20,022 bases of DNA from a virus. The notes below the pieces were generated by a model that saw nothing but the letters and a program-made list of their open reading frames with translations, was not told where the DNA came from and searched no databases. Location: the IMG/VR virus record IMGVR_UViG_3300035201_000055, positions 1 through 20,022 of that record, one strand, 5' to 3'. Made by a program: the position numbers and the translations under genes. Shown piece by piece: positions 1,671 to 20,022 of the stretch; within the stretch, counting starts at the first letter, position 1, and every line of letters begins with the position of its first letter.

Positions 1671-1877
1671 TTAGAAATTACCACCTGTTATAGTAAGACC
1701 TGCTTTTTCAACGACATTTTCAGTCTTCCAAGAAGCAGAGATTGCATCATATTGGAGTATAGCACCGTCAGTTGCACCTGTTGTATTGACATCGGTAAGA
1801 CTACCTAATGTACTAACACCAGCAGAAGAAACAGTTAATACTTGAGGTCGATTAGATATAGTGACTTTTGTATTCAT
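1671..1877 (-). CDS. Small fibre-associated structural protein, 68 residues
   Basis: This short protein has no signal peptide or membrane segment. Its middle (GSLTDVNTTGATDGAILQYD, then SASWKTENV) matches the 'L-DV-TTG-TDG-L-YD--W' element found inside many phage tail-fibre and collar-like proteins, here standing alone. The ATG at 1875-1877 overlaps the TGA of the upstream gene as ATGA, which suggests translational coupling. An AGG at 1884-1886 lies 6 bases upstream and could serve as ribosome site. The fibre gene follows after 20 bases. I infer a connector or trimer-assembly role between baseplate and fibre, or a gene fragment split from a longer fibre; neither is demonstrated by the sequence. 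It is a real gene by its tight packing and recognisable motif; function is uncertain. Confidence 0.7.
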   Translation of the reverse strand: MNTKVTISNRPQVLTVSSAGVSTLGSLTDVNTTGATDGAILQYDAISASWKTENVVEKAGLTITGGNF

Positions 1878-2194
1878 GTTACGCCTGGGTTAATTGTTAT
1901 AAGACCCTCAATAACTCGTGTTTTAGTTCCACCAGCAGCTGTAATTACAACATCATAAAGATATCTCCCTTGTTCGATAGCCGCAGTTACTGCAGCTGTC
2001 ATAGCAAGAGTCACTTTACCAGAACCAATAGAAACTGTAAACGCATGAGAAGTTGAACTATAATGGGATTTTTTCATTTTGGCAGCACCACTATATCCAG
2101 TCAAATCCCATAGAGCATTGGAATCATCATAGATTCCAATCTCAGCGGAGAAATCCGCCCCTTGATCAATATAGAGATTGTGTTGTGCAGCCAT
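1874..2194 (-). CDS. Small Ig-like virion structural protein, 106 residues
   Basis: The protein starts MAAQHNLYIDQGADFSAEIG and has an all-beta pattern: DQGADFSAEIGIYDD, LTGYSGAAKMKKSHYSS, GSGKVTLAMT, then EQGRYLYDVVI and TRVIEGLITINPGV. This layout ('polarised input, then a modified chain of residues, then a Y-D-V-I strand and a final E-G strand') resembles the N-terminal Ig-like fold of BppU-type baseplate upper proteins. I recognise close relatives beside fibre genes in marine T4-like phages. It is the first gene after a late-promoter match at 2215-2222. No clear Shine-Dalgarno sequence precedes the ATG at 2194 (the leader reads GCGATAAACCCTA). Its end overlaps the next gene by 4 bases. 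A baseplate-to-fibre adaptor role is inferred from fold and neighbours, not shown. Confidence 0.75.
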   Translation of the reverse strand: MAAQHNLYIDQGADFSAEIGIYDDSNALWDLTGYSGAAKMKKSHYSSTSHAFTVSIGSGKVTLAMTAAVTAAIEQGRYLYDVVITAAGGTKTRVIEGLITINPGVT

Positions 2195-2447: not shown

Positions 2448-5400
2448 TTAGATAGCAAGTGCCAAACACCTCACATTTCTAATCTTTGGAATATCACTCT
2501 GATCGTCCCCTATCATAGCAATCTTAACACTGAATTCTTGAAAATCACTCATACCTTTTAGTTCAAAATCAAAAGCTCTATATTGAGTCTTAGTCTCTGA
2601 TGATGGATAATTAACTGAAGGAACCTCCATATAACTCATTTCATCAAAATCGCCAGGATCACCATCTCCTTTAGTTTTAACAAATACTTTAAATTCATTA
2701 GATGAATTTCTTATACCATCAAATAGAACCTTAACAGAAGTAGAAGTATTTTCTAAAACTACTTTCTTAGTAATATATGCAGAATGTTTCCCACCTTTCG
2801 GAAGAAGTTCTGAAGAAACATCTAAAACAGCAGGAGTGCCTGAGGTTTCTTTGTTTATTCTATTAGAAATGGTGATAATTGAAGATCCTTCTAAATCAAT
2901 GATAGGACTTAATCTATCGTTAGATGTAGACAACACGAGATTTGTATTTAAAGTACCAGAAAGACTTGATAAAGAACTATTACCTGCTATAGTAGCACCA
3001 GAAGCAATTAACTTTGGTTCATTGAGAATATTTTCAACATTATTCTCGATAACTTCATTGAGTCTAATATTATATGGTACTTGTTTAACATTTCCAATAC
3101 TCTTTCCAGTCAAACTATCTATTCTAAAATTAGCAGTGGTCTCTATAGGAACAAATGATTTAATCTTTGGTTCAATAGATTGATATGCAATATTCTTAGA
3201 TCCTATAACATTATTACCACCAGTTTTCTTAGTAATACTAGCTTTACTAGTAACAGTAACTTCATACTCATCCATATTAATAACATTAGTTATTGTATGA
3301 GTTGTATTTAATTCTTGTAAAGGTATACTATTATTTTGATAACATTGAACAACTGAATACTTATCATGAGTTGCGACTATTGTTGAAAGTTGACCACGAG
3401 TACAACCAGTCAATCCAGTAGCAGTAGTTCCAGTATATGCTATAATTTCATCATCAATTTTAACATATCCTTTATTACTTGTTGATACATTAACATTAGA
3501 AATAGTATTCCACAAATCAGTTGATGTAGCATCTAAAACCTCATCAGAAACAGTTCTCAAGGAAATAGTAGTACTATTAACTGTAAGAGCATCTCCTAAT
3601 TGACCATTTAATGTATCAGATGTGACATTACTAAATTCAACTGTATCTCCAACTGTATGCATACCATGATTAGGTTGTGAAACTTTAATTACAGCTGAAT
3701 CATTGGTACATGTAAATGGGTTATTTGGTAATGAAGACAAAGGAATTGGTGTATTATTTAATATAGCTGTATAACTAGTGTTTGGTGTAAACTTACATCT
3801 ATTTAAAACAAACTTAATATCTTCATACTGATCGGATATCCAAGTCTTATCGTTAGCAGACTTAAATAACACTCCTATAGCTGGTTGTTTGTCAATAATA
3901 AAACCAGTAGAAACATCTTTTTCACCTAATCGAGATACCCAAACATTATAATTATTGGATGTACTCTTAATAACAAAAGCATAATCATTTTTATCTGTTA
4001 GATAAACTGGTTTTTTGAACGTAAATTTCGTTGCCTTACTAGCATCATCTGATATAACAACAGTACTTGATGCTAATGAAACTACTGATGATGGAACTAC
4101 CGTATCAGATGGAACACCATTTTCAATACCTCTTATTTCTACAGTGACAGGAGCTATAGAATCTTTAGCATAAAAATAAAGATCTATAGAACTAAGGAAT
4201 ATACCACCTTTATCATTAACAAAGAATGATTGTGCAAGGGGATCACAACCACCTCCACCAGGCGGAGGATCTGGAACAAAGAATGTTCTAGAATCACTAA
4301 TTGCAACTGTGGTAACTTCTGGAACTTCTAAAGTGGTAATTGTAGCAGTAACATCCAAGGTCGATCCTTGTGAATAATAATTACTTGATGCATATGAACC
4401 ACTAAGTCCTAAAATCTTTACGCTATTAGCATCATCAGCAAGAGAGAATGTTAAATCACCAGTCTCGAATGTTTGAGATGGAAGTAATACAAAAGCTGCT
4501 AGATTACCAGTTTCATTAGACTTTAAAGTTTGTTGTGTTAAAGATTCAGCTATAGCACCAGAACTATTACCAATAACCTTAAACTTCACACCAATTTGGC
4601 CAGGATTTAAATCAGAATCATCTAAAGATCTTATACTATCAATAGCCAAAATATCAGTAGTACCTGTATAACCAAATACTCCAGTAGAAGAACTAGCGGC
4701 AAAATCAGTAGTTGCAACTACATTTGTAAACACATTTGGATTTTGTACTGTTGCTTTAATTCCTTCAATTACTTGAGGTCTTACAACACCATCATCATAT
4801 ATTGGTTGAATGGTAACTGTTTCTCCAATAACAAAAGAAACACCATTATTATTTGTCAACCCTGTTAGTAATTTTGGATATGATATACCAGAAGATAATA
4901 CATCATCTATATGAAAATAGAATTTAGTATTTGGTTTTAAATTTTCAGTAACGACACTTAATACTCTAGATCTACTAAATTTAAGATCAGTTACTTTATT
5001 AATAGTATCACCACTTTCTATATCAAAATTCAAAGATCCAAGAACATCTTGAACACCACTTCTTACCTCAGTTACAGTTGTGCCACCATCCGTTCTAGTT
5101 CTATCTGATGTATTCCAATTACCCCATTCTTCAGCACCTGCTCCAATTTCATCCCATAAGAACCTATAACTATCTACAAGATTAATATTCTGACCATCTT
5201 TAATTTCTCTCACAGTATCATACCAAATATCTTTCTTTGGTATAATTTCCATTTCACCAAGCCATGTAAATACTTCAAATGGAGTTACATTTTCTACCCT
5301 ACTAGCAAAAGAAGTAGAAATATATGATTTTTCTGTGTATGGAATAGTTATATATCCAGTATTAATACCATCTATACCACCTGTAATTGTAGTCGTACTA

Positions 5401-8400
5401 GCACTATTATAACTGAATCCAATACCAGTTACATATGGATAAGGTCTAGCAAGTTTATTATCTAAATCAATTGATGCCGTATAATCAGTATTTGATAAAT
5501 CAGCAACATCAGTATTAATAAAACTATCTACAACAAAACCATTTTTAAATCTATTCCTACCATCACCATCCAGAATATTTAAATTAACTGTATTGTTTTC
5601 TAAAAGATTTAAAGAAGAATATTTCTCTACATTGGATAATCTTGTTTCCAATTTTCCAATATCCTGCATAGTATAATTTCTATTATTCTCTATTTTTATA
5701 TCAGCATCTCTAACATCCTTTAAATATGGTGGTAACGTTAACGTTGCTATATGCAATCCAATAGATTCATCTTCAGTTTTCTGTGGATCTATAGAATCTG
5801 CACCTTTAACAACTTGTATATCACCACTAGTTGTTACATATACATTATCAACCCTTCCCAAATAGAAAGAATAATCTAAATTTAATACAGACGTTGGATG
5901 TACAAATTTAGTAGAACTCTCAATAGATTTACCAGCAATTAAAAGTGGATTTGTATTATTATCAGAAAATGGAGATCCAATAGTACCACTACCAGTAGTA
6001 CCGTTACTTATAACATATCTAAAATCTATTATATCAGCATAAGAATTATAAGTGTATGCTAATGGAGTATCTTTGTATGTTAAATTATATGATTCTTTAG
6101 AATAAAAATCATTAGATAAATTCCCATGACTAAAATGGTCATACACAACTACAAATTTATTAACTGGAGTTGCAGCAGATGTTTTTCTTACTAACTTGGA
6201 TGGTCTATAAAAATTCTCTGTATCATTCTTAATGAATATAAAGTCATCAGTTATATCCTTATATACACCATACTTAGATTCTTTAACAAATACACCAGAT
6301 GCTGTGGAATTATTTGGTATAGTAACCGAGATTGCAAGATTTTCACCACTCTGGAATTTTGATGAAGAAAGATACTTAACATATAATAAATTAGAACTAC
6401 CTTTAGATATTACTTTAGCTCTAATCAATCCATAGACAATAATATCTCCCAAGTTTATATTAGCAGATGAATTAACTGTAAGTTGATCAAATAATTTAGT
6501 AGTAGATGCCCCACTATCAGTTGCTTCATGAATAGCATGAATCTTAATTACATCCACGTTTCCTAAAGATATATCTTTATCAACGAATCTAGTTCCATAC
6601 CCATGATTAGTAGCATCTTTTACTTTAGTTACCTGAAATATCTTATAAGATTCTTTATTTTTTGTTTTAACTGTAGATACTGGTACTCTTGACTTATAGT
6701 AAATATTATGTGCTGTATTAGCAGCTAATCCAGTTATCTTAATTATATTTGGGAAAAGTGGATCTGGAACTGTTACTGCAGTAACAGAATCAGCTGCAGT
6801 GCCAGTCATGATTAAAATATTAGTTGTGTCTACTTCTTCACCAGCACCAGTAGTAAGAGTAACAGCTCCATTACCATCAGCAGTTAATAAAGCATATCCT
6901 GTTCTATAATGACTATAATCCTCTGTTGATGCAATTGGATTTGAATATACTTTAGATGTTAATCCAGTATCAGACTTATATAATTTAGTGACATACTTCT
7001 TAATATCGTAATATGTACCAGCTGTACCAGAAGAACCCAATACCGCTCCAGTAGCAGTAGATACAGAAGCCATCTCAAAATTAGTATTACCAATTCTTAT
7101 TCTAGATACAGAAGATAATTCATTAACAAAATTTGAATTCAAACCAGTAAGAGCAGTACCATTAACAACAAACGAAGCGCCGCTTAAAGCAACAGTATCT
7201 TGTTTTACTCTACCTTCGAAAGAATTAGAACCAGAACCTGATGTTATTGTTCTGACATCTTCTAACTTACTTGGTACAATAGAACTAATAGTAAGCAAAG
7301 AAGCAGTGGTATATCTACTCTGAGATAAAGTTTCACCTAAACTAAATGTACCAGTAACTTGATGTACGTGAATATTATTACCTGAACCAATACCAGTGTC
7401 CCTAACATATCCCGTAGCACCACTAGTTTGACCAGTAACAAAATCACCGACAGTTAACCCAGTTGTGCCTGGAGCTGCACCGAGATTTAATTTTACCCAT
7501 ACATTAACATCACCTACATATAACTTAGTTGTAGTCTGATTAATATTATCAACTAATCCAAAAGCTTTTGCAGTACCAATTTCAGTATTAGCAACATCTT
7601 TTAAAGATAATTCAGCACCAAATCCTACAGCACCTTTAATAAAACTGTCAGTACTAATATCTAATTTAAAATATGATCCAATATTTGCAACAAATCCTTT
7701 ATTTTGTTTAGTAGCAGTATTTCTTGGTTTCTCTACAAGTGCATATTGTTTTCTATCTGATAATACCTCAAATCCTTTAACATATGCTTTACCATCAGAC
7801 AATTCAACAGCATAGTAATCATTACCATTAATTGAATCTGTTGGATCTGATGATGTTGGAGTTCCATTTACAACAGTTCTACCATCTATTAATTTTGATC
7901 CAGCTAAATACACACCCCCATTAACACCATCATCCAAAGCTTCTCTAACTTTAACACCAAATGGTTTAATTGTATAATGGCCAGACTCATCATAAGTCCT
8001 TCTTGCCAAATTCTTTTCCAATTCACTATAAATGGAATTATCTACACGTAAAGTGGATTCACCATCTTCCAATCTCAATATTTCAATGAAATTAGAATCA
8101 TCAGTTATTAATAAATTTTGTTTGGTGAGTGTTATTGCAATCTTTAATCTATCAGCACCAGGCGATGCATAGTTAGTAGTACCTAAAGCATTATCATATA
8201 ATGTATCATCCTCAGATGTAGTTGATATACTTTCTTTTACCTGAAGACCTACTTTATATGATGGTTTATTATTATATTGATCAAGAATAATTGTTTGTGG
8301 TGATACTTCTACAAAATAACCTCTAATGAAATAAACACCAGCATTAATAGTAGCGGATGATCCAGTATATGCAGTAGCATTTTGAACAGCAGTAACAGCT

Positions 8401-8876
8401 AAAGATGTACCAGATGAATCTTGAAGTACCTCATTATTTTGAAATACATTAACTTGAACATTATTTGTAATATTACCACCAGAAGTATATTTTACATATA
8501 AAGTGATAGTATCTTTTTCTGAAGTTGCAGCACTTATTGTATTAATAACTTCTGCTTTCACACCAGAAGTTAAACCAGTTAATTCTTGTCCTACTAAATT
8601 TGTTCTATATGTCTCTACAGAAATACCATTCATAAGAGGCTGAACTAAAACAGCCTTATAACTGACACTATAATTCATATTGCCAGGGATTACAACGGAT
8701 CCATCCTTGAATACGTGCGACCCAAATCTATCAATTTGATTTTGTAAAATTGACTGAAGGGTATTTAATTCCCGTGTTTGGACAGAATATCCTGGCTTAA
8801 AAAGAACCTTTTGGTAATTTTTTGATCGATCAAAATCATCAAAGTACGGAGATATCTTGAGATTAGTAACTTCCAT
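2448..8876 (-). CDS. Giant baseplate/fibre-type virion protein with N-terminal DUF4815-type domain, 2,142 residues
   Basis: The ATG at 8876 opens a complete frame to TAA. Residues about 8-66 (SPYFDDFDRSKNYQKVLFKPG, TRELNTLQSILQNQIDRFG, HVFKDGSVVIPG) are the hallmark of DUF4815-type phage virion proteins. Further marks in order: a conserved helical segment at about 1044-1092 (LTLPPYLKDVRDADIKIENN, then GKLETRLSNVEKYSSLNLLE); a Trp-rich patch at about 1230-1255; a PPPGGGG hinge followed by DPLAQSFFV at about 1534-1556, where a second beta-rich half begins; a 'DEIIAYTG...GCTRG' module at about 1802-1846; and a C-terminal domain at about 2026-2142 (GGKHSAYITKKVVLE ... MSYMEV ... IGDDQSDIPKIRNVRCLALA). 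GE/TSGA-type modules occur near residues 95-150, 470-520 and 790-850. It sits directly after gp8, where T4 has gp9/gp10. A baseplate rim or fibre-attachment role is inferred. No strong Shine-Dalgarno sequence is seen. Confidence 0.85.
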   Translation of the reverse strand: MEVTNLKISPYFDDFDRSKNYQKVLFKPGYSVQTRELNTLQSILQNQIDRFGSHVFKDGSVVIPGNMNYSVSYKAVLVQPLMNGISVETYRTNLVGQELTGLTSGVKAEVINTISAATSEKDTITLYVKYTSGGNITNNVQVNVFQNNEVLQDSSGTSLAVTAVQNATAYTGSSATINAGVYFIRGYFVEVSPQTIILDQYNNKPSYKVGLQVKESISTTSEDDTLYDNALGTTNYASPGADRLKIAITLTKQNLLITDDSNFIEILRLEDGESTLRVDNSIYSELEKNLARRTYDESGHYTIKPFGVKVREALDDGVNGGVYLAGSKLIDGRTVVNGTPTSSDPTDSINGNDYYAVELSDGKAYVKGFEVLSDRKQYALVEKPRNTATKQNKGFVANIGSYFKLDISTDSFIKGAVGFGAELSLKDVANTEIGTAKAFGLVDNINQTTTKLYVGDVNVWVKLNLGAAPGTTGLTVGDFVTGQTSGATGYVRDTGIGSGNNIHVHQVTGTFSLGETLSQSRYTTASLLTISSIVPSKLEDVRTITSGSGSNSFEGRVKQDTVALSGASFVVNGTALTGLNSNFVNELSSVSRIRIGNTNFEMASVSTATGAVLGSSGTAGTYYDIKKYVTKLYKSDTGLTSKVYSNPIASTEDYSHYRTGYALLTADGNGAVTLTTGAGEEVDTTNILIMTGTAADSVTAVTVPDPLFPNIIKITGLAANTAHNIYYKSRVPVSTVKTKNKESYKIFQVTKVKDATNHGYGTRFVDKDISLGNVDVIKIHAIHEATDSGASTTKLFDQLTVNSSANINLGDIIVYGLIRAKVISKGSSNLLYVKYLSSSKFQSGENLAISVTIPNNSTASGVFVKESKYGVYKDITDDFIFIKNDTENFYRPSKLVRKTSAATPVNKFVVVYDHFSHGNLSNDFYSKESYNLTYKDTPLAYTYNSYADIIDFRYVISNGTTGSGTIGSPFSDNNTNPLLIAGKSIESSTKFVHPTSVLNLDYSFYLGRVDNVYVTTSGDIQVVKGADSIDPQKTEDESIGLHIATLTLPPYLKDVRDADIKIENNRNYTMQDIGKLETRLSNVEKYSSLNLLENNTVNLNILDGDGRNRFKNGFVVDSFINTDVADLSNTDYTASIDLDNKLARPYPYVTGIGFSYNSASTTTITGGIDGINTGYITIPYTEKSYISTSFASRVENVTPFEVFTWLGEMEIIPKKDIWYDTVREIKDGQNINLVDSYRFLWDEIGAGAEEWGNWNTSDRTRTDGGTTVTEVRSGVQDVLGSLNFDIESGDTINKVTDLKFSRSRVLSVVTENLKPNTKFYFHIDDVLSSGISYPKLLTGLTNNNGVSFVIGETVTIQPIYDDGVVRPQVIEGIKATVQNPNVFTNVVATTDFAASSSTGVFGYTGTTDILAIDSIRSLDDSDLNPGQIGVKFKVIGNSSGAIAESLTQQTLKSNETGNLAAFVLLPSQTFETGDLTFSLADDANSVKILGLSGSYASSNYYSQGSTLDVTATITTLEVPEVTTVAISDSRTFFVPDPPPGGGGCDPLAQSFFVNDKGGIFLSSIDLYFYAKDSIAPVTVEIRGIENGVPSDTVVPSSVVSLASSTVVISDDASKATKFTFKKPVYLTDKNDYAFVIKSTSNNYNVWVSRLGEKDVSTGFIIDKQPAIGVLFKSANDKTWISDQYEDIKFVLNRCKFTPNTSYTAILNNTPIPLSSLPNNPFTCTNDSAVIKVSQPNHGMHTVGDTVEFSNVTSDTLNGQLGDALTVNSTTISLRTVSDEVLDATSTDLWNTISNVNVSTSNKGYVKIDDEIIAYTGTTATGLTGCTRGQLSTIVATHDKYSVVQCYQNNSIPLQELNTTHTITNVINMDEYEVTVTSKASITKKTGGNNVIGSKNIAYQSIEPKIKSFVPIETTANFRIDSLTGKSIGNVKQVPYNIRLNEVIENNVENILNEPKLIASGATIAGNSSLSSLSGTLNTNLVLSTSNDRLSPIIDLEGSSIITISNRINKETSGTPAVLDVSSELLPKGGKHSAYITKKVVLENTSTSVKVLFDGIRNSSNEFKVFVKTKGDGDPGDFDEMSYMEVPSVNYPSSETKTQYRAFDFELKGMSDFQEFSVKIAMIGDDQSDIPKIRNVRCLALAI
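4252..4268 (-). other. GC-rich hairpin at the Pro/Gly hinge codons
   Basis: On the coding strand CCTCC GCCTGGT GGAGG forms a 5-base-pair GC stem in a region that is otherwise strongly AT-rich. It encodes the PPPGGGG linker just before the DPLAQSFFV motif. The stem may be nothing more than a result of Pro (CCN) and Gly (GGN) codons lying side by side. A pause during translation between two halves of the protein is possible but speculative. Confidence 0.3.
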
Positions 8877-8907: not shown

Positions 8908-10491
8908 CTAAAATTCGACAACTAGTTTGATGTCTTCAATTTGATCGTTAGATCTATTAACTGCTTTTCTGTTTTCTGTGTAGATAACAGTTCCACTATG
9001 CTTCTTAACTTCTGAAGATGCATAACCAGAGGTCCAAGACGCTGCTGCAATACCAGAAGATGCAGTACCATGACTGGTATCTGGTGTTACTGTAGTATTA
9101 CTTACAGCACCAGTGACAGCATTTGCTCCTGTGAAAGCAACTTCTTGATACTTATTAGTACCAGCTTGATCTACATCAATGTACTCATTCTGATAGTATC
9201 TAAGAACTTTAGATACAGAATCCCAATGAATAACTCTACCCTTAGCACCAGTAGTAGCTTGTGTAATAATTTCTCCTGGCGTATATGTGGATGTAGTAGA
9301 TGAAGCGAACTTAATTGCCTTACAAGCAGTAACTGTAGGGTCTATGAGATCTGTTGTAGCACCTGCAACGACAGGATCAGAAACTAATCCATACCTTCTA
9401 AACTGGGAATCTACAGGGATATCTCCACCACCATCTAGAAAATCTAGACTTTTATTAATCATTACACGATAACCACCCAATTCGAGTGATGTATCTGCAC
9501 CATGTCCATCAGGAGGTGAAATAATTGCTTTTACGGTTCCACTCAAAGCTGTGGAAGAACCACTCCTTGCAATTGCAGCAGCGGCAGTAGCATACCCTTC
9601 AGTTAATAAAACTGTTCCACGAGTATATCCCTTACCAATCTGATGTAATGTAGCAGAATCAATTTTACCAGAATTAGCACCAGTATTTGGAACTACAATT
9701 GCTGCTATAGCTTTATTAGAGTCTGTACCAATATCATTATCTCCAAGTATAGGACAATAATAAGTACCAGCAGTAATACCACTTCCTCCAGCAGTAATTA
9801 AAAGTTGTTCAATTGATCCAGATCTTGCTGCTGAAGCAGTCTGCACAGCATTATCAGTTTTTACTGGAATAAAATCACTGGAAACAAATTTAATATAATC
9901 AGAAATATTAATGGTGTATAGATACAACCAACGATATCCATCAGAAGTATCAAATATCGATGTAGTAGTTCCAGTTGGTTCTACCGTAGATACCTTTCCA
10001 GTTGGGTTTGTCGGACTCTGACCATTGTATATACATTTATAAACTTGGTAATCACTATTAATCACATAAAATTGTGCATCATATAACTTTGATTGACCAT
10101 TAACTGAAAGATTTGCTGGAGTATAATCATTCTTATACATATCATACTTAAGTCCAGTCTTCCAAGTATTTCTTTTTACTACTTTAGAAACATCTGTGGA
10201 TGTTACTCTTTTCATAGCAATCATATCATCATATATTTCATTCATATCATCGAATGAATCATTTGGTGTTGGAGGAACGAGTTCACTCACTCCAGAAACA
10301 CCATTATATCTTTCATAAGTCCAATTTTGGGGTCTACCGATAAAGAGGTAAATCTTACTCCTATAAGCTTGTGCTTTAGCAGAACTATCGGCTTCTTGAG
10401 TACTCGAAGCGTCAGAAAATGGTTCTGCTAGAGACTCAATAAACTGTTCAGCCGCAAAAACTCGGAAATTATCTGTTACAAGTGAAGGCAT
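8908..10491 (-). CDS. gp8: Baseplate wedge protein, T4 gp8 family, 527 residues
   Basis: T4 gp8 is a 334-residue dimeric wedge subunit that joins gp7 and gp10 in the baseplate arms. Matching blocks seen here, in the same order: YLFIGRPQNW (about 48-57; T4 has an F-GR-EPW block); PPTPNDS with a following DDM and the KRNTW block (73-110; T4 PPYPTDS and RRDW); VYKCI (150-154; T4 VYRCL); DGYRWLYLYTI (184-194; T4 DGYVWEYLFEI); FRRYGLVSDP (about 361-370; T4 FRQISIITNP); and HSGTVIYTENRKAV with the extreme C-terminus (about 497-527; T4 HSGEMIYMENRPPI). The extra length against T4 lies in two insertions: about 218-345, with GGSG/GKGYT-type repeats, and about 385-490, with a GEIITQATTGAKGRV module. 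ATG at 10491 is preceded only by a weak GAG. The stop is TAG. Assignment is firm by ordered motifs; the function of the insertions is unknown. Confidence 0.9.
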   Translation of the reverse strand: MPSLVTDNFRVFAAEQFIESLAEPFSDASSTQEADSSAKAQAYRSKIYLFIGRPQNWTYERYNGVSGVSELVPPTPNDSFDDMNEIYDDMIAMKRVTSTDVSKVVKRNTWKTGLKYDMYKNDYTPANLSVNGQSKLYDAQFYVINSDYQVYKCIYNGQSPTNPTGKVSTVEPTGTTTSIFDTSDGYRWLYLYTINISDYIKFVSSDFIPVKTDNAVQTASAARSGSIEQLLITAGGSGITAGTYYCPILGDNDIGTDSNKAIAAIVVPNTGANSGKIDSATLHQIGKGYTRGTVLLTEGYATAAAAIARSGSSTALSGTVKAIISPPDGHGADTSLELGGYRVMINKSLDFLDGGGDIPVDSQFRRYGLVSDPVVAGATTDLIDPTVTACKAIKFASSTTSTYTPGEIITQATTGAKGRVIHWDSVSKVLRYYQNEYIDVDQAGTNKYQEVAFTGANAVTGAVSNTTVTPDTSHGTASSGIAAASWTSGYASSEVKKHSGTVIYTENRKAVNRSNDQIEDIKLVVEF

Positions 10492-10520: not shown

Positions 10521-10528
10521 TATTTATT
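10521..10528 (-). promoter_or_regulatory. T4-type late promoter match upstream of gp8
   Basis: The minus strand reads AATAAATA within TCTAATAAATAAAAG. The element overlaps the last two bases of the TAA stop (10527-10529) of the giant upstream gene and ends 29 bases before the gp8 ATG. The 35-base gap holds no terminator-like hairpin, so read-through from the giant gene is also likely. Confidence 0.5.
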
Positions 10529-13500
10529 AGATATAATTATCAAAATACACAATATCATTTGCGGAATAGGCTTGAGCTGTACCAAGAACTCCTCTTGTAC
10601 ATCCATCTATCCCAGAAGAAGAATGGGTTGTATATTCGACAATTTCAGCATTAACTACGTTAGAGACCGTTTTATAAAGGATAACTCTATTCGTATCATA
10701 ACCAACGCCAGGATTTTTAATAGTTAACGATGTAACTGTACCTGACCCATTTAGTACTGGTTCGAGAACACATCCAGTTCCCCCACCACCAGTAAGCGTA
10801 ATATTTATATCACGATCATCATAACCAGTACCACCACTTATGATTTCAACCTTTCTAAGTTCACCACCTGAAATAAATGGTTTAAAAGATGCATTAGATC
10901 CACTATGTGTACCTGTGATAGTAAATGTTGGTGAATTTGATGTTAATCCCGTAGTATTATTAAGGGGAATAGTCTCAACCGAATTAGTGATATTCGATGT
11001 AAGTTTAGTACCCTTTCTAACTTCAGTTTTACTCATCGGTTCCTTTTTATATGTGGATGCATATACAGTCGGGAACACTTTATGTGTATTATAAACATTA
11101 TAGCCAGGATATTGAAGGTCTATTGAACTATTAACAATCTCACCACCTTTAGGTATACTTACGGTTGCAGATGCTTTTGCACCAACTCCAGTACCTTCAG
11201 TTCTTAATATAACAGGATTCTTGAATTTTACACTACCAGAAGTAGTTGTTATCGACGCAACAGTACCATTAGAAATCGTTGTAGATCCTAAAGTACCATT
11301 TCCCCATGTAAAGATATTGTCGCCAGAATATGTAGCTGTAGTAAGAACTGTTGGTGATGTGATTCCAGTAATAGTTCTTGCACTATCTTCTCCACTAAGT
11401 GTTAATTGATCTCCAATTACAACTTCATATCCTCTACTCAACACCTTAATATCGTCAGAAGTACCACGGAAATCTAAGATAACCATTTTTGTGAATGTTT
11501 GTGGTGATACAAAATGTATTTTATCATTACTTATATAATAATCATATAAAGGACTTAAAGGATAACCATCTTTTACAACCAAATACTGATTTGCCCATTG
11601 TCTAGGTCGTTCTATATGAGCATTTGGATAGTAAGATGCTGAACTCTTGGTTACAGTAAGTTCAGTAACATTAGTACCATTAGTAAGTGTATCCAACTTA
11701 TCAAATGAACCAACAGATCTTATTGATATAGTGTCACCATCAGCAGGATCTACAGCAAGTTTAATTTGAGTCTTATTATCTCCAACCAATGTATAATCTA
11801 CCTTTGGATCCAATATCAATCCATTTTTGACAACTAATAGACTTGTTTCATCTGGTATATTATCATTACCAATTGTACCTACGGGAGTAAATACTCGTTG
11901 ACCTTGAGTACCATATCCTACAGTCAATATACATCTAGGATTAGCAGACACAAATGTATGTGCATAATTACCACCAGTAATTACAGAGTTTGCAACTCCA
12001 CTATTAGCAACAAATGTATGATTTGATGTATCAGATGACGTACCAACATTAACAGTAATGGTTGATGAAGTTTTTGTAGTAATTTCAAGTGGAGCATCAT
12101 ATGATCTATCACGTTTTCTACTAAGTGAACTAGCAACTGCACTAATAAATGTATGAGTTGTAGTATTAGTTGAAGGTGTAGAATCCAATACTTGAATATC
12201 AAAAGTATCTGTTGTTACATTAGAAATAGGTGCCCACTTACCATTACCCATTCTATCAGTTGGGCGAGGATAATTATGAGTTCCAACACCTTGTGTACAT
12301 TCGAATCTAAGAGCACCATTACTTAATTTAATTAAATCACCATTCTTAAATCCATGAGTAGTAATTTTTATAGTTACAATGCCTGTTGTTGGATTATATG
12401 TAGTACCAGCTTCTGGGGTCTTAAGGTCTATAGTTGTTCTCGGATATGCATGATTACTTTGATTATTGTCTGAATCACAAGTAAATGTAACTGCCCCATC
12501 AGCCAACTTGATAGACTCTCCAACACTAAGTGCATTAGCACCAGTACTACCAATATCTAAAACTAAGTTTCCAGTTGTAGGATCATAAGTGGTATTGTTG
12601 CCAGGAGTATAATTTACTAATGGAGATGTACCAACGTTAAGAGTAATTGTATCTGTAGTTACTGCATCACAATTAATATCAACATTATATTTTGGATCAG
12701 TAGGTCTTGGATAAGACTTAATAGCATAACCACTATCCATATTACATTTGAACTTCAATGAATTTGGTTCAATTCTAACATCAGAATTTTGTATAAGACC
12801 ATGATTAGGAATAGTTAATACTAAATTACCATTAGCGGGATTATAGGTTGCATTAGTCGGTGTAAATCTCTTTCTACCATCAAACAAAGTAAATGTATCT
12901 CCAACATTAGCAAATGCTGTATTAGTTTGATCCAATAACTTAAATATACTGGTAAACTTAATACCAAACAAAGTTCCTGTGGTATGAGCAGTACCTAAAG
13001 TAATTGTATTATCATTAACCCATGTAAAGTCACCTAACTCTGCAAACTTCCAAGTATTATTAGAGAATATAACAAGATTATCCCGTTCTCCAGATGCCGT
13101 TGATATAGACTGACTAATTGTATAATTAGATCCTGAAGCTGATAAGGTAACTGGTAGATTATTACTCATCCTAACCATAAAGAGTTTAGTTCCAGTTGGA
13201 GGAGCAGTAGTAAAATTAATGAATCCTCTATTAGCACTAAATGTATACTCACTTGAAGGATCCTTAATAACACCATCAACAGAAACTAATATTGATGCTG
13301 TATTAGTGGTATTAGGAATATTTGCACCATTAAGGAACATTTTAAACTGAGTTCTAACACCATCGGGACAATAATCAAAATCATCTATTTGAGTAACTGA
13401 TGCATATTTCACAACAAAAACATTAGCTGGTGCAGGAGATCCTGTATGATCTAATGTAATATCATTTCCACTTACTGTAAAGTCATTTCTATCAAGGAAC

Positions 13501-16500
13501 CTTGGAGCACCATCTGCATAAACAACTATTCTTCTATAATCAGCAGCAGAACTGCCTGGCGATGCAGACATAGTTATTTTCCAACTATTGGAATTTACAG
13601 CACTTTGACTAGCAATTGGTAATTCCGCAGCACCATGTGTATAAAGAATCCAAACTTGTTCTGATGCAGCGGGTGCTGTTGTAAATGTAATCTGACTACC
13701 GCTTACTGTATAATCCTGAGTTGGGTTTTGTACAACACCATTTCTAACAACCATTAGATCATCAACATCTGGTGGTGTGAATGCAGTACCACTACTATGT
13801 GTCAAGTTAAATGTTTGTTGATTGCCATTAATTCCAGTGAGATTATCAAGCATTATATTTTGATTTACACCATCATAAGAATAATATCCAAATATTATTT
13901 CATTAGCAGCAGGAGGAGTAGTGAATGTAATTTGATTTGTAGCTACGGTAAAGTCTGTTCCAGATCTTTGCATCACACCATTTCTCATTACAAATAGATT
14001 AGCTTGTATTGGTGAGAATAGAAGACCACCTGAAGTTATTGGGAATACTGTAGTAGTACCATTACTACACTTAAATTCATCTAAAAGTACATTATTTGTA
14101 CTTGATGGAAGAAGTTGTCTATTAAAGAATGGTAATTTAATAACATCAGTATCAGTAGGTGGATCAACAAATGTAATTAAATTACCACTAACTGTATAAT
14201 TCGATGAATCTGGTCTTAACATAGTTCCATTCTTTATCGCAAATACATCAGTAGGATTTGCAACATACTGAGGTACACCATCATCAGATAAATTCCATTG
14301 CACTCTAGTACCTGTTTGATCTTGACCTAATCTATCGAGAATAGCACCTCTACTATTCTCTAAATTGTCTAAGTAACTACTTACATAATCTATAAGTGTG
14401 CATCTAGTAGTAGCTGGATGAGCATCACTAAAAATTATTTGATTCCCAACTATAGTATACTTGTCATGATCAAGTACAGCATTAGATATGCCTGGATTTA
14501 CTTGATAATCATCATCCATATAAACAACTAAACTTTCTTCTCCATTTGTAGGAGTATAATTAACACCATTTCTCTTCAGTGTAAATGTCTTAGTACTTCC
14601 ATTAAATGTAATTGCTTCTAAAACTTCAACAAAACTTGATGAATGTGATGGACTTGTATATGTAAATCGAGTATCATAACCCTTTATACTAGTTGCACCA
14701 GTACCATAAACAGTACCACTAATATTTTTTGCTCTTACTTCATAAGCAACATCTGATGGAGCTTTAACTGCATTTGATTCTATATGTTCATTGAATCTCT
14801 TAGTTCTACAACCCAAAATACCTTGAATCTGTCTATCATTCCATGTAGAAGTATTTAATTGGAAACATCTTGTATCTTCATCAATATACCATCCAAACAA
14901 ATCAGCTTTAGTTGCTGTTGAACTGAATGTAATTACATTATTACTAACACTATAATTTGAAGGTGGAACTATATGAGTCTGGAATACAGAAGTCTCAAAT
15001 ATAATTAATTTACAATTGGAACTAGGTGTATAGTTCAATGTGAATTGTGTACCAGTAGCAGATCCAGCGAAAGTCAAAGAATTTAAATTTTGATGACCCA
15101 TAGCAAATACACGAGAATCATTAGTAGGACTAGCACCAAAATTAACTACATTATTAGATACTGTTAGATTTGCAGGATTCTGTACACTACCTGCAACAGA
15201 AATTATAACTTTACCAAGATTTGTTATAGGATAAACAGTAGACTGACCAACCTTCTCAAATGATAATGTAGTATCGGAAGTTGTTAATGTTTGTGTTTTT
15301 AATATATCAAACTTATTTACATTAGGATGAGTTATATGAATATTATCATTATTATTAAATCCAAAATTTGGAACAAATGTTTCATTTGCAACAGTTGTAA
15401 TTGTATGAGTGCCTGCACCCTGACTAGTTAAATTGATAGCAGTACCATTATTTGCATTGGTAGCAGTTGTAGCAAATTTTATAGTATTATTATCTACTTT
15501 AATTAAGTAATAAAGAGTATTAGTTGTTAATCCACCAATTGCTGTAGTACCAGCAGTATACATTACTGCAAGACCATTACTCATACCATGATTACTAATA
15601 GTAATTGTTTCATTAGTAGTATTAACAGCTGTATGTGGTGCAGTTACGGCAATCGAAACTAGATCACTAGCAAATGTATAACTATGATTTGGTTCCTGCA
15701 AAAGACCTTGCCAGAACACTAGGTTCCTATCTGTTGCATCACTATTACCTATATTAAATGCATATGCATCAGGTATAGAAAGTACTAACTCACCAACTAC
15801 AAATCCAGTACCTTCTCTAATCCTAAACTTAACAAAGTAATCACCAACACTTAAAACATAAGCTATAGTTCTAGATGTAAGTCCAATAACATAAGTACCA
15901 ACAGCAAATCCACTAGCACTTCCAAATATAACTGTTTGGGTACTACATGGAGTCAACCCAGCACTCAAATCTAATTTTTCTGATAAAGTTGTTGTAAATA
16001 CAACGCTACTACTGAATACATCAGCAGGATTTTCAAAAAATCCTTTTCTTCTTTCAATTACCTTCCTACCAAATTGTTTAAATCCTGCTGCATGTGTATT
16101 AACATCCTGTTGATCTTTCCATTCCTTAGTATCTCTAGATGTTGTTAATGAATAAGACCAATCTTGGTAATAATGACTATCAGTTATTTTCTGTAAATTT
16201 TCACTAGGGTTTCCAATAATATCTTTTCTAGTTTTCTCCAACTTACCATAAGGACTTACTTTCGCATAAGCTTTAGATCTTCTAATACTGGTAATTTTAC
16301 CATATACTACTCCATCAGATGTCTTTATAATATTCTTATCAGCATCTGCATTAAATTGACCTGCATCTTCATTAAAGACTAATGTTGATGTTTTTTCATC
16401 AAAACTTACAACTGTAGCTTCTACAGGAACACCAAATATTTTAGAATTAGTTTTATCGGTAAGATATCCAGATGTTGGTGTCCAATCTGGATTATAATAG

Positions 16501-19500
16501 TATAACTTATTACCAGCTGGTAATCTCTTTCTTTGTATAGCTGTTTTAAATAATGCACCAGAACCACTTGTAGATTGTATGGTTACAACTGGTTCTTTAG
16601 TAAATCCAGCGCCAGGATTAACAACAGTTACCTTAGTAATAGTACCAAGAACAACAGTTACAGTAACATGTGCATTACCTATAGATGCTTTAGTTCCATC
16701 TGCAACAATATTATCAAGTAATACAATTGGAACGTTATCATAGTTTAAACCGCCAGTTGGATTAACTCCATTTGGATCAGGTATTAAAGAAATACTAGAA
16801 ATTTCGAAATTATTAATTAATTTAGCTGTTGCAGGAAGATTTAAATAATAATTAACATTTTCATTTGGTGTAAAATTACCTAGACTACTATACTTAATAC
16901 TTCCTAATTTACCAATAGTATTAGAATTAGTTTGTATAACTGCTTTCCCATCTCCAGCGATAGTACTTATAGTTCCTCTCTTAATAAGTCCAGTAACTTC
17001 TGGTAATAACCTATATCCAAATCCTTCATTTGAGACAGAGATTTTATCAATTGGACCAGTTGCACCATAAGACTTTGCTGCATAATATAACCCCATATCA
17101 TTATAATTTAATGTACTTCCACTGAATTTTATTGTAAATTTATTATTAACAGAATCTATATCTGATATTACATGAGATCCTCTATATTCCGATACCTTAT
17201 TAATAACATAGATATAATTACTAGAATGTAGATATAAAGTATCTGGAATTTTAGATCCATCCAATTTAATATAATCGTTTACGCCTGGTTCTGAAATTTG
17301 GAACCACTCATTTGTTTGATCGATCTCATACCATAAAGATGGTGCTATAGCACTATTAAGTGCAGGTGTATATATTTTATACGTATACCTAGAATTTAAT
17401 TCTAATGAATATATCTCTTTATTTTCAAAAACATTTACCTCCACTCCATCTATTATTTTTGGAGCAATTTGAACATCATATAATCTAGTAATTTGTGGAC
17501 TTACTGCTCTAGATCCATTATTATGAATTGCTACTTCTACAAAATCCAATAATCCAGTTACAGGATCTAATGGTTGTGTATAATCAAAATAAACATAATC
17601 TCCTATGGCTAGGTAATGTGGATCATTAGTCTGGAATGTTACATTCAATCCATCAGAAGATTTTACAAGATCTATAGATCCATCAGTTTTTTTCCTAAGA
17701 TCTTTACCACGAACTCTCGATACAAAAGCAGAAAAATCACTGCCAAATGTCTTTGAATTATCTACTGTAAGTCTATCACCAACACCATAATTATCACCAG
17801 CAGATTCTACAATTACACTATCAACAGTACCTTGAGATTTATCTCCAGTATTTGCAATAGTTCGATTTAACCTAATATCTTCTTGTGGATATTCATTATT
17901 AGATGGAAGACCTCTAAATGCAGGAGCTCCATTAATTACTGTAGGAATATCATCAATCTGTTTCTCATATGCTCTTGTAAATGCTTTTGGAATCTTATCA
18001 TTTGTTCTAGCTTGATTATTCATATAACCATCACATTCACCAGCAAACTTATCTCCTATAAAATATGGAAATCCATTGAAATTAATACCATTATTGTTTG
18101 CTGCAGCAAGATTAACTAATTCATTAGTAATACCATCAAATGAAGATGTAGTTATAAAATAAAGATATCTACCATCTGGGAAATCTGGTGTTACACAGAA
18201 TCTACCATTATGTTGATCTAGATCATCTAATGTACCTTGATCAAATTCATAATCTTCTATAAAAGTACCAATTGGATATTCTGATATAGAAGGTCCACCA
18301 TCCCTATCCAAAGTAACATACTTATTAACTCCTTGTACATTAAATGGTCCTAATGCACCAGCAGTACCTGCAGCAACTTCTGTATATTTTAACCTATATC
18401 TAGATTGTATCTCACTGAGTCCTGTTCCAGTACCAAGATCAGGAACATTTCTTACTGTATTTACTTTCTTACCACTATAAAATGGAATACCATCATAAGA
18501 AACTCCCATTACTGGAGTATGAACTGGTATTGCATCTAACTGGGTAACATAATTACTATTAGCATCCGCCCATACTTTAAATGGTTTAGTACCATCTGGA
18601 TTAGTTGCACTAATAAGAGAAGAATCTAAAGTACTAGGAATAGTAGCTGCTCTTGCATTAGCAACATTCTTTTCGTAAATATACCTTGCTCTTAGTCTAT
18701 CAGCACCATGCATTAAGTAGTATTGTTTTTCATTTATATCTTTTGGAAAATCTAACGCATAATTGAAGTAATCAAATCCTCTTTCATTATCAGTGGATGG
18801 TTTCTTATCGCCACTATCATATACATATCCACCATAATCATCCAAACGACCATCTTTTTTAAACCTTCTAATTAAATTAAAAGTCCATTCCTTTAATCTA
18901 GGTGTAACTCCACCATTAGTTCCCAATGGAGTTATAACAACTCTTGGTGTAGTTCTGTATCCACTACCCTTATTAACTATATTAAACCTTGTTATTTGAC
19001 CAGAATCATTAGTTTCTGCTGTAAGTACTCCACCAGTACCACCCCCTCCACTAAGAGTTATTGTAGGTGGAATAAAGTAGTTCTCGCCTGGATTTGTTAT
19101 AACAATATTAAATAACGCTCCATTTGCAACATAAGCTGTCGCTGCAGCATTTTTACCATCACTAATCTTAATTGTTGGTTGTTTTATAAAATCTTGAGTA
19201 GTTAATCCAGTTGCATCAATCTCATTTGAATTTGTTTTATTAAAATTATCATATGATATTAAAGATCCACTAGTTTCAATCATTCTAATATCATCAACTT
19301 GGAAAGGAATATCAATAACATCTGATTTTCCACCACCACTTATTCTAATAGTAGGTAATTCAATATAACCAGAACCAGATTCTTTTATAACAATATTGTC
19401 AATATTTCCATTAGCATAACTAATATCTAATACAGCAGGTTTAAATCCAGCTGGGTTAAGTTTATCAGTTTCAAAACTAAACAGAACTGGTGGATTTGTT

Positions 19501-20022
19501 GTTGGAATGGTGATAGTAGTACTCTTTAATGATTGTAAACTAAGAGAACTTTGATTTAATAATGCATCAGATTCTGTTGCATGTACTGTAATCATATCAC
19601 TACGAACCTTTCTTACATAATATTGATCCTTTGGAGTTAATCCATCAAAATAATCATCATTTGCCTTAAAGGTTACTTTATCACCAGTTATTAATCCATG
19701 ATCAGTATAAATTATCTCATTTGTTACAGCATTTGTCTTGGTAAAATCAGTAAAATCTATTTTTATATTGGGGTTATTATTAATGACATTAATAACTGGT
19801 TTTGAATCAAATCCTGTTAATTTACCATAAAATGAGTTAGCTGTAACTCCATCTGTAAGGAATTGATTGGTCAATTTATTAAAATCAATCGATTTTATAG
19901 AAAAAGATAATCTTATTATTTTATTAGATGATGTATTAGATAAAGTAAATGTAGCAGATGTATTCTGAGCAGTTGTTGCTCCTGGCGCCGTACCAGTAAT
20001 ATCAAATTTTGGTAATTTTAAA
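10527..20022 (-). CDS. Giant modular virion protein with YHYH-like domain, at least 3,164 residues, start beyond the right edge
   Basis: The frame is open from the right edge to TAA at 10527-10529. A TTG at 19872-19874 could be taken for a start, but the frame continues upstream of it without a stop for 49 codons (reading KLPKFDITGTAPG ... SFSIKSIDFNK), so the true start is outside the window. Domains in order, by window position: HGLITGDKVTF module (19600-19720); Gly-X-Gly-Tyr beta repeats (16560-19450); YHYH-like domain (about 18050-18550) with HTPVMGVSYDGIPFY, LDQHNGRFCVTPDFPDGRYL and FPYFIGDKFAG; a second HGM module (15420-15610); a tandem array of 'NG...DYTVSGN.ITF' modules (11465-15230); three YPRPT modules (12130-12885); and a C-terminal GTGY repeat plus GCTRG module (10530-10850). 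It occupies the T4 gp7 position before gp8 but shows no gp7 similarity I can see. A long wedge-linked arm or fibre is inferred. Confidence 0.85.
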   Translation of the reverse strand, partial: LKLPKFDITGTAPGATTAQNTSATFTLSNTSSNKIIRLSFSIKSIDFNKLTNQFLTDGVTANSFYGKLTGFDSKPVINVINNNPNIKIDFTDFTKTNAVTNEIIYTDHGLITGDKVTFKANDDYFDGLTPKDQYYVRKVRSDMITVHATESDALLNQSSLSLQSLKSTTITIPTTNPPVLFSFETDKLNPAGFKPAVLDISYANGNIDNIVIKESGSGYIELPTIRISGGGKSDVIDIPFQVDDIRMIETSGSLISYDNFNKTNSNEIDATGLTTQDFIKQPTIKISDGKNAAATAYVANGALFNIVITNPGENYFIPPTITLSGGGGTGGVLTAETNDSGQITRFNIVNKGSGYRTTPRVVITPLGTNGGVTPRLKEWTFNLIRRFKKDGRLDDYGGYVYDSGDKKPSTDNERGFDYFNYALDFPKDINEKQYYLMHGADRLRARYIYEKNVANARAATIPSTLDSSLISATNPDGTKPFKVWADANSNYVTQLDAIPVHTPVMGVSYDGIPFYSGKKVNTVRNVPDLGTGTGLSEIQSRYRLKYTEVAAGTAGALGPFNVQGVNKYVTLDRDGGPSISEYPIGTFIEDYEFDQGTLDDLDQHNGRFCVTPDFPDGRYLYFITTSSFDGITNELVNLAAANNNGINFNGFPYFIGDKFAGECDGYMNNQARTNDKIPKAFTRAYEKQIDDIPTVINGAPAFRGLPSNNEYPQEDIRLNRTIANTGDKSQGTVDSVIVESAGDNYGVGDRLTVDNSKTFGSDFSAFVSRVRGKDLRKKTDGSIDLVKSSDGLNVTFQTNDPHYLAIGDYVYFDYTQPLDPVTGLLDFVEVAIHNNGSRAVSPQITRLYDVQIAPKIIDGVEVNVFENKEIYSLELNSRYTYKIYTPALNSAIAPSLWYEIDQTNEWFQISEPGVNDYIKLDGSKIPDTLYLHSSNYIYVINKVSEYRGSHVISDIDSVNNKFTIKFSGSTLNYNDMGLYYAAKSYGATGPIDKISVSNEGFGYRLLPEVTGLIKRGTISTIAGDGKAVIQTNSNTIGKLGSIKYSSLGNFTPNENVNYYLNLPATAKLINNFEISSISLIPDPNGVNPTGGLNYDNVPIVLLDNIVADGTKASIGNAHVTVTVVLGTITKVTVVNPGAGFTKEPVVTIQSTSGSGALFKTAIQRKRLPAGNKLYYYNPDWTPTSGYLTDKTNSKIFGVPVEATVVSFDEKTSTLVFNEDAGQFNADADKNIIKTSDGVVYGKITSIRRSKAYAKVSPYGKLEKTRKDIIGNPSENLQKITDSHYYQDWSYSLTTSRDTKEWKDQQDVNTHAAGFKQFGRKVIERRKGFFENPADVFSSSVVFTTTLSEKLDLSAGLTPCSTQTVIFGSASGFAVGTYVIGLTSRTIAYVLSVGDYFVKFRIREGTGFVVGELVLSIPDAYAFNIGNSDATDRNLVFWQGLLQEPNHSYTFASDLVSIAVTAPHTAVNTTNETITISNHGMSNGLAVMYTAGTTAIGGLTTNTLYYLIKVDNNTIKFATTATNANNGTAINLTSQGAGTHTITTVANETFVPNFGFNNNDNIHITHPNVNKFDILKTQTLTTSDTTLSFEKVGQSTVYPITNLGKVIISVAGSVQNPANLTVSNNVVNFGASPTNDSRVFAMGHQNLNSLTFAGSATGTQFTLNYTPSSNCKLIIFETSVFQTHIVPPSNYSVSNNVITFSSTATKADLFGWYIDEDTRCFQLNTSTWNDRQIQGILGCRTKRFNEHIESNAVKAPSDVAYEVRAKNISGTVYGTGATSIKGYDTRFTYTSPSHSSSFVEVLEAITFNGSTKTFTLKRNGVNYTPTNGEESLVVYMDDDYQVNPGISNAVLDHDKYTIVGNQIIFSDAHPATTRCTLIDYVSSYLDNLENSRGAILDRLGQDQTGTRVQWNLSDDGVPQYVANPTDVFAIKNGTMLRPDSSNYTVSGNLITFVDPPTDTDVIKLPFFNRQLLPSSTNNVLLDEFKCSNGTTTVFPITSGGLLFSPIQANLFVMRNGVMQRSGTDFTVATNQITFTTPPAANEIIFGYYSYDGVNQNIMLDNLTGINGNQQTFNLTHSSGTAFTPPDVDDLMVVRNGVVQNPTQDYTVSGSQITFTTAPAASEQVWILYTHGAAELPIASQSAVNSNSWKITMSASPGSSAADYRRIVVYADGAPRFLDRNDFTVSGNDITLDHTGSPAPANVFVVKYASVTQIDDFDYCPDGVRTQFKMFLNGANIPNTTNTASILVSVDGVIKDPSSEYTFSANRGFINFTTAPPTGTKLFMVRMSNNLPVTLSASGSNYTISQSISTASGERDNLVIFSNNTWKFAELGDFTWVNDNTITLGTAHTTGTLFGIKFTSIFKLLDQTNTAFANVGDTFTLFDGRKRFTPTNATYNPANGNLVLTIPNHGLIQNSDVRIEPNSLKFKCNMDSGYAIKSYPRPTDPKYNVDINCDAVTTDTITLNVGTSPLVNYTPGNNTTYDPTTGNLVLDIGSTGANALSVGESIKLADGAVTFTCDSDNNQSNHAYPRTTIDLKTPEAGTTYNPTTGIVTIKITTHGFKNGDLIKLSNGALRFECTQGVGTHNYPRPTDRMGNGKWAPISNVTTDTFDIQVLDSTPSTNTTTHTFISAVASSLSRKRDRSYDAPLEITTKTSSTITVNVGTSSDTSNHTFVANSGVANSVITGGNYAHTFVSANPRCILTVGYGTQGQRVFTPVGTIGNDNIPDETSLLVVKNGLILDPKVDYTLVGDNKTQIKLAVDPADGDTISIRSVGSFDKLDTLTNGTNVTELTVTKSSASYYPNAHIERPRQWANQYLVVKDGYPLSPLYDYYISNDKIHFVSPQTFTKMVILDFRGTSDDIKVLSRGYEVVIGDQLTLSGEDSARTITGITSPTVLTTATYSGDNIFTWGNGTLGSTTISNGTVASITTTSGSVKFKNPVILRTEGTGVGAKASATVSIPKGGEIVNSSIDLQYPGYNVYNTHKVFPTVYASTYKKEPMSKTEVRKGTKLTSNITNSVETIPLNNTTGLTSNSPTFTITGTHSGSNASFKPFISGGELRKVEIISGGTGYDDRDINITLTGGGGTGCVLEPVLNGSGTVTSLTIKNPGVGYDTNRVILYKTVSNVVNAEIVEYTTHSSSGIDGCTRGVLGTAQAYSANDIVYFDNYI
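11465..15230 (-). repeat. About eleven copies of a ~45-residue fibre-type module in the giant protein
   Basis: Each copy has a hydrophobic strand, a short 'NG' turn, a 'DY/DF-TVSGN-ITF' strand and a closing 'PP/AP...' strand. Clear examples are LMVVRNGVVQNPTQDYTVSG (about 13635-13765), LFVMRNGVMQRSGTDFTV (13875-14005), VFAIKNGTMLRPDSSNYTVS (14120-14250) and LLVVKNGLILDPKVDYTLVG (11710-11850). More divergent copies lie near 11465, 12955, 13165, 13400, 14380, 14880 and 15100. The array is interrupted by the YPRPT block. The motif recalls beta modules of T7-like fibre N-termini and of cyanophage structural proteins. Copies are diverged at DNA level, so this is an old duplication rather than a recent expansion. 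Confidence 0.75.
12130..12885 (-). repeat. Three tandem YPRPT modules within the giant protein
   Basis: Each unit opens with TYNPTTG or a close variant (ATYNPANGNL, TTYDPTTGNL, TTYNPTTGIV). It continues with a strand, a 'HGL/HGF...' turn and a 'SLKFKC / AVTFTC / ALRFEC' strand, and closes with a 'YPRPT/YPRTT' loop. Copies lie at about 12610-12885, 12410-12606 and 12130-12410. In the second copy the HGL turn is replaced by GANALSVGE and the third P of YPRPT by T. I recognise this module from T4-like cyanophage structural proteins, where it likewise occurs in tandem. Its ligand, if any, is unknown. Confidence 0.75.
16560..19450 (-). repeat. Scattered Gly-X-Gly-Tyr beta repeats in the N-terminal part of the giant protein
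   Basis: A short motif (strand, 'SGSGY / NPGENY / NKGSGY / NEGFGY / NPGAGF', then 'PP/EP-V-I' strand and often a GGGGTGG loop) occurs near 19365, 19080, 18960, 17025 and 16600, with a weaker SAGDNY form near 17795. Two more copies lie at the C-terminal end of the same protein (about 10700 and 10830), and a related GSG/GKGYT form sits in the first gp8 insertion. The pattern suggests small beta units strung along an extended protein. Confidence 0.65.

Follow-up and report, generated by a model that had tools for sequence, protein, structure and literature searches.

A putative gp7-type baseplate wedge protein with a diverged array of predicted tail-fibre-anchor-type domains in a T4-like phage

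Introduction

The wedge protein gp7 of bacteriophage T4 is a monomer and forms, together with gp8, a platform for gp6 (PMC3004832). In the contractile phages studied so far, BW3 proteins, including T4 gp7, serve as attachment points for receptor-binding proteins (PMC10811340). For pelagimyophages and cyanomyophages, T4 gp7 has been reported to be absent and seemingly replaced by VrlC (PMC7029224).

In the current study, we describe a giant protein that is located, like T4 gp7, between gp6 and gp8, and whose N-terminal motif and, more weakly, K motif match T4 gp7 in a like order. T4 gp7 counts 1032 aa, and its peripheral domains precede the shared part, while the giant protein adds a YHYH domain, GGSGY repeats and a C-terminal array of repeated units. 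The gp7 proteins of the cyanophages P-SSM4 (7312 aa) and P-SSM7 (7124 aa) are colinear with it over the N-terminal motif, YHYH domain, K motif, an array unit, YPR units, the terminal pair of array units and the C-terminal region, but they hold only 4–5 array-type units (one of them after the K motif) and 13–14 YPR units, and gp9 and one further gene lie between their gp7 and gp8. Both I899_gp055 of HTVC008M (1016 aa) and ORF122 of S-CREM2 (1937 aa) share the place in the gene order, the N-terminal motif and the K motif, but end near the latter and have no array. The array-less orthologue ORF122 was detected in CsCl-purified virions with 91 unique peptides and a coverage of 27.2% (PMC10665884). 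The main text of the paper on the S-CREM1 virion, a phage with a gp7 of 5422 aa, gives 14 virion proteins and names only 'baseplate', without an ORF.

Gene content of the window

The stretch of DNA analysed here (the window) is an IMG/VR record of 20,022 bases with five tail genes, all on the minus strand (Table 1). The virus is known from metagenome sequence alone, is T4-like and is related to ocean phages. The giant gene is a single unbroken frame of at least 3164 aa, whose 5' end lies beyond the contig, and 35 bases separate its end from the start of gp8. The YHYH domain scores 59.1 bits, above its gathering score of 25, and is also present in cyanophage gp7 and in S-CREM2 ORF122. With regard to the outer genes, the LtfC-like protein is 53–95% identical to the copies of the relatives, and the structural protein cut by the contig end varies far more among relatives, in identity and in aligned length, than the wedge genes do, as expected for a fibre-type gene.

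Table 1. Genes of the window, and domains and array units of the giant protein
Feature	Position	Strand	Remark
Structural protein, cut by contig end	1-1650	-	
LtfC-like protein	1874-2194	-	PHROG 'L-shaped tail fiber protein assembly', E 2e-20
DUF4815/VrlC-type structural protein	2448..8876	-	Pfam PF16075, E 2e-59
gp8 baseplate wedge subunit	8908..10491	-	Pfam PF09215, E 1e-16; phrog_438, E 6e-153
Giant protein, best read as gp7/BW3-type baseplate wedge protein	10527..20021	-	Open frame; colinear with full-length relatives of 2499-5217 aa
YHYH domain region	17574..18524	-	Pfam PF14240 on aa 494-626, E 7.5e-16
K motif domain, DSxYYQDxSY..W...HxAGF	15984..16415	-	Aligns with T4 gp7 864-891
Array unit 1	15597..15734	-	Outside the interval of the initial annotation
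Array unit 2	15078..15221	-	
Array unit 3	14865..15020	-	
Array unit 4	14382..14540	-	
Array unit 5	14112..14258	-	In structure model
Array unit 6	13869..14009	-	In structure model
Array unit 7	13623..13769	-	In structure model
Array unit 8	13386..13541	-	In structure model
Array unit 9	13152..13304	-	In structure model
Array unit 10	12936..13088	-	In structure model
YPR cassette, three clear units and one degenerate	11922..12869	-	Insertion separating unit 10 from unit 11
Array unit 11, first of conserved terminal pair	11697..11852	-	
Array unit 12, second of conserved terminal pair	11463..11597	-	Fibre-anchor fold matches
C-terminal region after the array, GGSGY-type elements	10530..11411	-	

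The giant protein as a probable remodelled gp7

The giant gene is best read, from its motifs and its neighbours, as encoding a wedge protein of the gp7/BW3 type in a T4-like member of the cyanophage/pelagiphage group, mainly because of the N-terminal motif and the gene order, and to a lesser degree because of a weakly matching K motif. The order gp25–gp6–this gene–gp8–VrlC is the same in HTVC008M and S-CREM2, and gp6 precedes the giant gene in its full-length relatives, the window itself showing the gp8 side only. The N-terminal motif, FYS.KG..(S)..LF..L.N, was tested on the full-length relatives, since the contig does not include this part of the window gene, and aligns with T4 gp7 727–759. 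T4 gp7 was the best match of its profile among 177,635 PDB sequences (E 0.01), and alignment of the profile to six T4-family gp7s by hhalign gave an E of 1.3e-5 over 36 columns. All six gp7s scored 16.5–21.7 bits, compared to 7.5 bits for the best of 1,095 shuffles, and the scores against T4 gp8, gp9, gp10 and gp11 were all below zero.

The K motif lies downstream, in the T4 order, and its match to T4 gp7 864–891 (hhalign E 2.5e-3 to 3.7e-3) is marginal and close to that of shuffled sequences, with 5.1 bits for T4 and 0.6 bits for RB49 against 4.1 bits for the best shuffle. Within the marine phages the motif is clear. About the first 700 residues of T4 gp7 are unmatched, and a search of the PDB with the whole protein sequence gave nothing significant. 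The motif matches argue that gp7 would be present but heavily remodelled in this group, against the statement of its absence (PMC7029224).

Two further sequence matches were set aside. A match of the K profile to EscO (E 0.006) covers a stretch other than the K motif, and orthology with GC399, the immediate upstream neighbour of gp8 in cyanophages, would rest on short GGSGY-type and YHYH-like matches only; the cyanophage protein colinear with the one described here is the giant gp7, encoded two genes farther upstream. Besides, I899_gp055 of HTVC008M (18436–21486 of its record, L085) is annotated as 'head closure Hc2', yet it lies between gp6 and gp8 and has the N-terminal and K motifs; the label probably stems from shared GGSGY-type elements.

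The repeat array and its variation among relatives

The initial annotation counted about eleven repeats at 11465–15230, which agrees with the result of a profile search. The profile, made from nine hand-picked copies at first and refined to twelve, finds 12 diverged copies of a core of ~50 aa (NG..DYTVSGN.ITF..AP) in the giant ORF at an HMM threshold of 0.01 per domain, on which the unit counts depend. Eleven of them lie within 11463–15221, and the remaining one, unit 1, is located upstream. When each copy was left out in turn, all 12 beat all 500 shuffles of themselves (11 to 48 bits vs at most 9.6 bits), the single-unit shuffles taking no account of composition trends along the protein; units 1 and 2 were the weakest, with 11.2 and 11.5 bits vs 8.9 and 8.1 bits for their best shuffles. 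The spacing from start to start is 73–94 aa over copies 4–10 and 85 aa for the last pair. No tandem repeats were found in the window at the DNA level, and thus 'diverged' is the apt word for the array. It was also claimed that three YPRPT units interrupt the array. Three clear YPR[PT]T motifs were indeed found (12713, 12446 and 12272), but the profile adds a fourth, degenerate unit, and the units form a block between units 10 and 11.

Among viral contigs scanned for gp8, those with a gp8 of at least 48% identity and enough upstream sequence had the same giant, unit-bearing ORF directly upstream, while loci with a gp8 near 41–43% identity had a different ORF of 700–1500 aa without units. The full-length relatives, taken from their contigs, range from 2499 to 5217 aa and have a constant layout of N-terminal domain, a middle part (mostly with YHYH), GGSGY-type elements, K motif, array and C-terminal region, all of which except the N-terminal part, lying past the contig end, is found in the window gene. 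The terminal pair also occurs in gp7 of P-SSM4, P-SSM7 and S-CREM1. The fibre-type modules, initially regarded as an oddity of this baseplate gene, are thus present as described but are general in the whole lineage, with a few copies in the gp7 of 5400–7300 aa of cultured cyanophages. In a gp8 tree with a poorly supported base, one change is enough to account for the array label relative to the cyanophage type.

The number of units, counted with the refined profile, varies from 11 to 26 in the full-length relatives and is 28 in L021. Counted from the front, units 2–6 of the window match units of equal or neighbouring rank in almost all relatives, and units 10–12 match the last ranks. Units 1–6 hold their place relative to the start of the array and the last units relative to its end, and the middle of the array shifts. 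Neighbouring middle units in L021 and L089 are 59–60% identical to each other, which is a sign of later duplication. These two longest relatives also have three more array units behind the match to the C-terminal profile, a second short array added near the very end.

Compared with the closer relatives (gp8 identity of 59–69%), the K domain is 50–62% identical, the terminal pair 42–58%, the array segments 33–54% and DUF4815 47–56%. The rate of change in the array segments is close to that in DUF4815, and the distal pair shows stronger conservation. These identities indicate that the array evolves like a structural protein and not like a hypervariable receptor-binding tip.

Predicted structure of the array

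The initial annotation expected a long string of beta-sandwiches and proposed segment-wise structure prediction as a check. Units 5–10 were modelled with AlphaFold2 from 11 aligned sequences (mean pLDDT 82.7, pTM 0.77), and such a string was predicted. When the Foldseek matches of this model were re-examined, the phiKZ baseplate chain 9xqd_G came first (Z 9.1, 198 residues, 4.0 A), followed by CBA120 TSP4, Kp9, the KP1 baseplate and T7/HRP29 tail chains; the Kp7 tail protein was also among the matches, most of which had a Z under 8. Immunoglobulin-like chains (contactin etc.), at the top of the plain Foldseek list, were not used because of their low probability and a TM near 0.1. A second model, weak overall (pTM 0.32), gave TSP4, HRP29 and T7 fibre chains at Z 7.0–7.5 for the terminal unit. 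On the sequence side, the array profile finds a Klebsiella K1 depolymerase in the PDB (E 1.6e-6), and Pfam Phage_T7_tail (PF03906) reaches 22.5 bits (E 1e-4), below its gathering score of 25.2.

Going by these models, the array unit is predicted to be a beta-sandwich of the tail-fibre-anchor type, and strings of a similar kind would occur at the rim of the phiKZ baseplate. The phiKZ protein is an outer peripheral baseplate protein, in which two or more consecutive domains superpose on the array, but it belongs to another baseplate and is 10% identical in sequence; the likeness is one of fold. The N-terminal domains of T7 gp17 and CBA120 TSP4 and the Kp7/Kp9 tail adaptors have the fold of one unit (Z 2.5–7.5, rmsd mostly 1.8–3.5 A, about 65 residues), but they are single anchor domains in fibres, tailspikes and adaptors, whereas here a dozen follow each other in one polypeptide of a wedge protein. 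In solved fibres and tailspikes, anchor domains with this fold work as trimers. T4 gp7 being monomeric, a common fold does not have to imply a common role.

The YPR cassette and a possible host-binding function

The YPR cassette is optional and missing from many relatives; it is 55–59% identical in some and wholly missing in others at an equal gp8 distance. From unit 9 to the end of the cassette, the giant protein aligns with YapH of P-HM1 over 464 columns at 38% identity. YapH is encoded in the fibre region, downstream of VrlC, and YPR units are common to YapH and the gp7 of P-SSM4 and P-SSM7. A cassette common to a wedge gene and a cyanophage fibre-region protein indicates that modules are exchanged between wedge and fibre genes, in whichever direction.

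Both the link to YapH and the presence or absence of the cassette between relatives would fit an array that serves as a host-binding arm, an additional wedge-borne adhesin whose domains, the YPR cassette in particular, attach directly to glycans of the cell surface. YHYH proteins have also been placed among putative receptor-binding proteins (PMC7029224). The model of the YPR block resembles the endosialidase beta-barrels 4hiz and 3ju4 (Z 6.8–7.6), but these matches tie with the unrelated barrels of Uba1 and V-ATPase in a low-confidence model (pTM 0.32), and a lectin claim for the block was therefore rejected. CBM_X2 (PF03442), matched by five of 11 members, is just above its cut-off when summed over the array segment (29.8 vs 28.9 bits), but no single stretch passes. 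The distal pair and the C-terminus are, moreover, conserved, and no hypervariable tip was seen. Considering both sides, we regard a host-binding arm as possible but rather unlikely.

Proposed role of the array

A joint reading of these results, to which we give moderate preference, is that of a gp7/BW3 wedge protein with a permanent C-terminal arm of the fibre-anchor type and of variable length, which braces the rim or carries or positions fibres. The gp7 core, i.e., the N-terminal motif and the K motif, would build the protein into the wedge beside gp6 and gp8 and, by analogy, we infer that it may do the same wedge work as T4 gp7. Past the K motif, some twelve beta-sandwich domains in tandem, of the predicted anchor type, would form an arm that continues through the inserted YPR cassette and the conserved terminal pair to the conserved C-terminal region. 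The arm most likely remains part of the baseplate, its proximal end held by the core and its distal end presumably meeting a conserved partner, and the middle units would, by varying in number, set its reach. In this way, it may stabilise the rim of the baseplate and hold fibres or set their position. We infer the geometry of the arm, its docking or bracing role and its partner. Among the possible roles of the array, we consider rim bracing and fibre docking the likeliest. Its distal end is one of its better conserved parts, which suits these two roles more than that of a receptor-binding tip.

The proposal of the initial annotation that a fibre could be permanently built into the wedge gains from the fibre-type modules in a protein with gp7 motifs, from the gp7 synteny and from the orthologue in virions. 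However, this virion-proven orthologue, S-CREM2 ORF122, is without the array, and the array itself would be placed in virions by analogy.

As a more speculative extension, which we consider doubtful, the array may work within the wedge as a ruler of adjustable length or as a rail for docking, with fixed ends and middle units that are gained or lost. Successive units would form docking sites for fibres, perhaps as intramolecular pseudo-trimers that mimic trimeric fibre anchors, and the unit number would set the reach or the number of receptor-binding proteins held.

That compact orthologues work without any array would also suit an array that acts as a scaffold or chaperone during assembly, is removed by cleavage or folded away, and plays no part in the mature baseplate. 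The array, however, has the predicted fold of stable virion anchor domains, and its distal pair and the C-terminal region are conserved across lineages, including the 7000-aa cyanophage gp7, which is unexpected for a discarded tail and makes a scaffold improbable. Despite its fibre-type domains and the cassette common to a fibre-region protein, the giant protein is hardly a true tail-fibre protein that happens to sit upstream of gp8, as its gp7 motifs occur in order, it lies between gp6 and gp8, and it is colinear with annotated and virion-detected wedge proteins.

A replacement of gp9 by the array was considered and rejected. Cyanophage gp9 had no match in the records behind L009, L011, L022, L026, L029, L033, L037, L039, L085 and L096; the match is lacking in eight array-lineage records but equally in HTVC008M and S-CREM2, and metagenome records may be partial. 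The match of S-CREM1 to cyanophage gp9 is confined to residues 1–71 of the query.

Conclusions

We conclude that the giant gene offers a clear example of tail-fibre-type modules that appear to have entered a core baseplate protein and change in number within it. Our results also argue that gp7 in the pelagiphage/cyanophage group is remodelled rather than absent, contrary to the earlier report (PMC7029224). The phages carrying the array are related to those of abundant ocean bacteria, and the finding is relevant to the ways in which such phages remodel the apparatus by which they attach.
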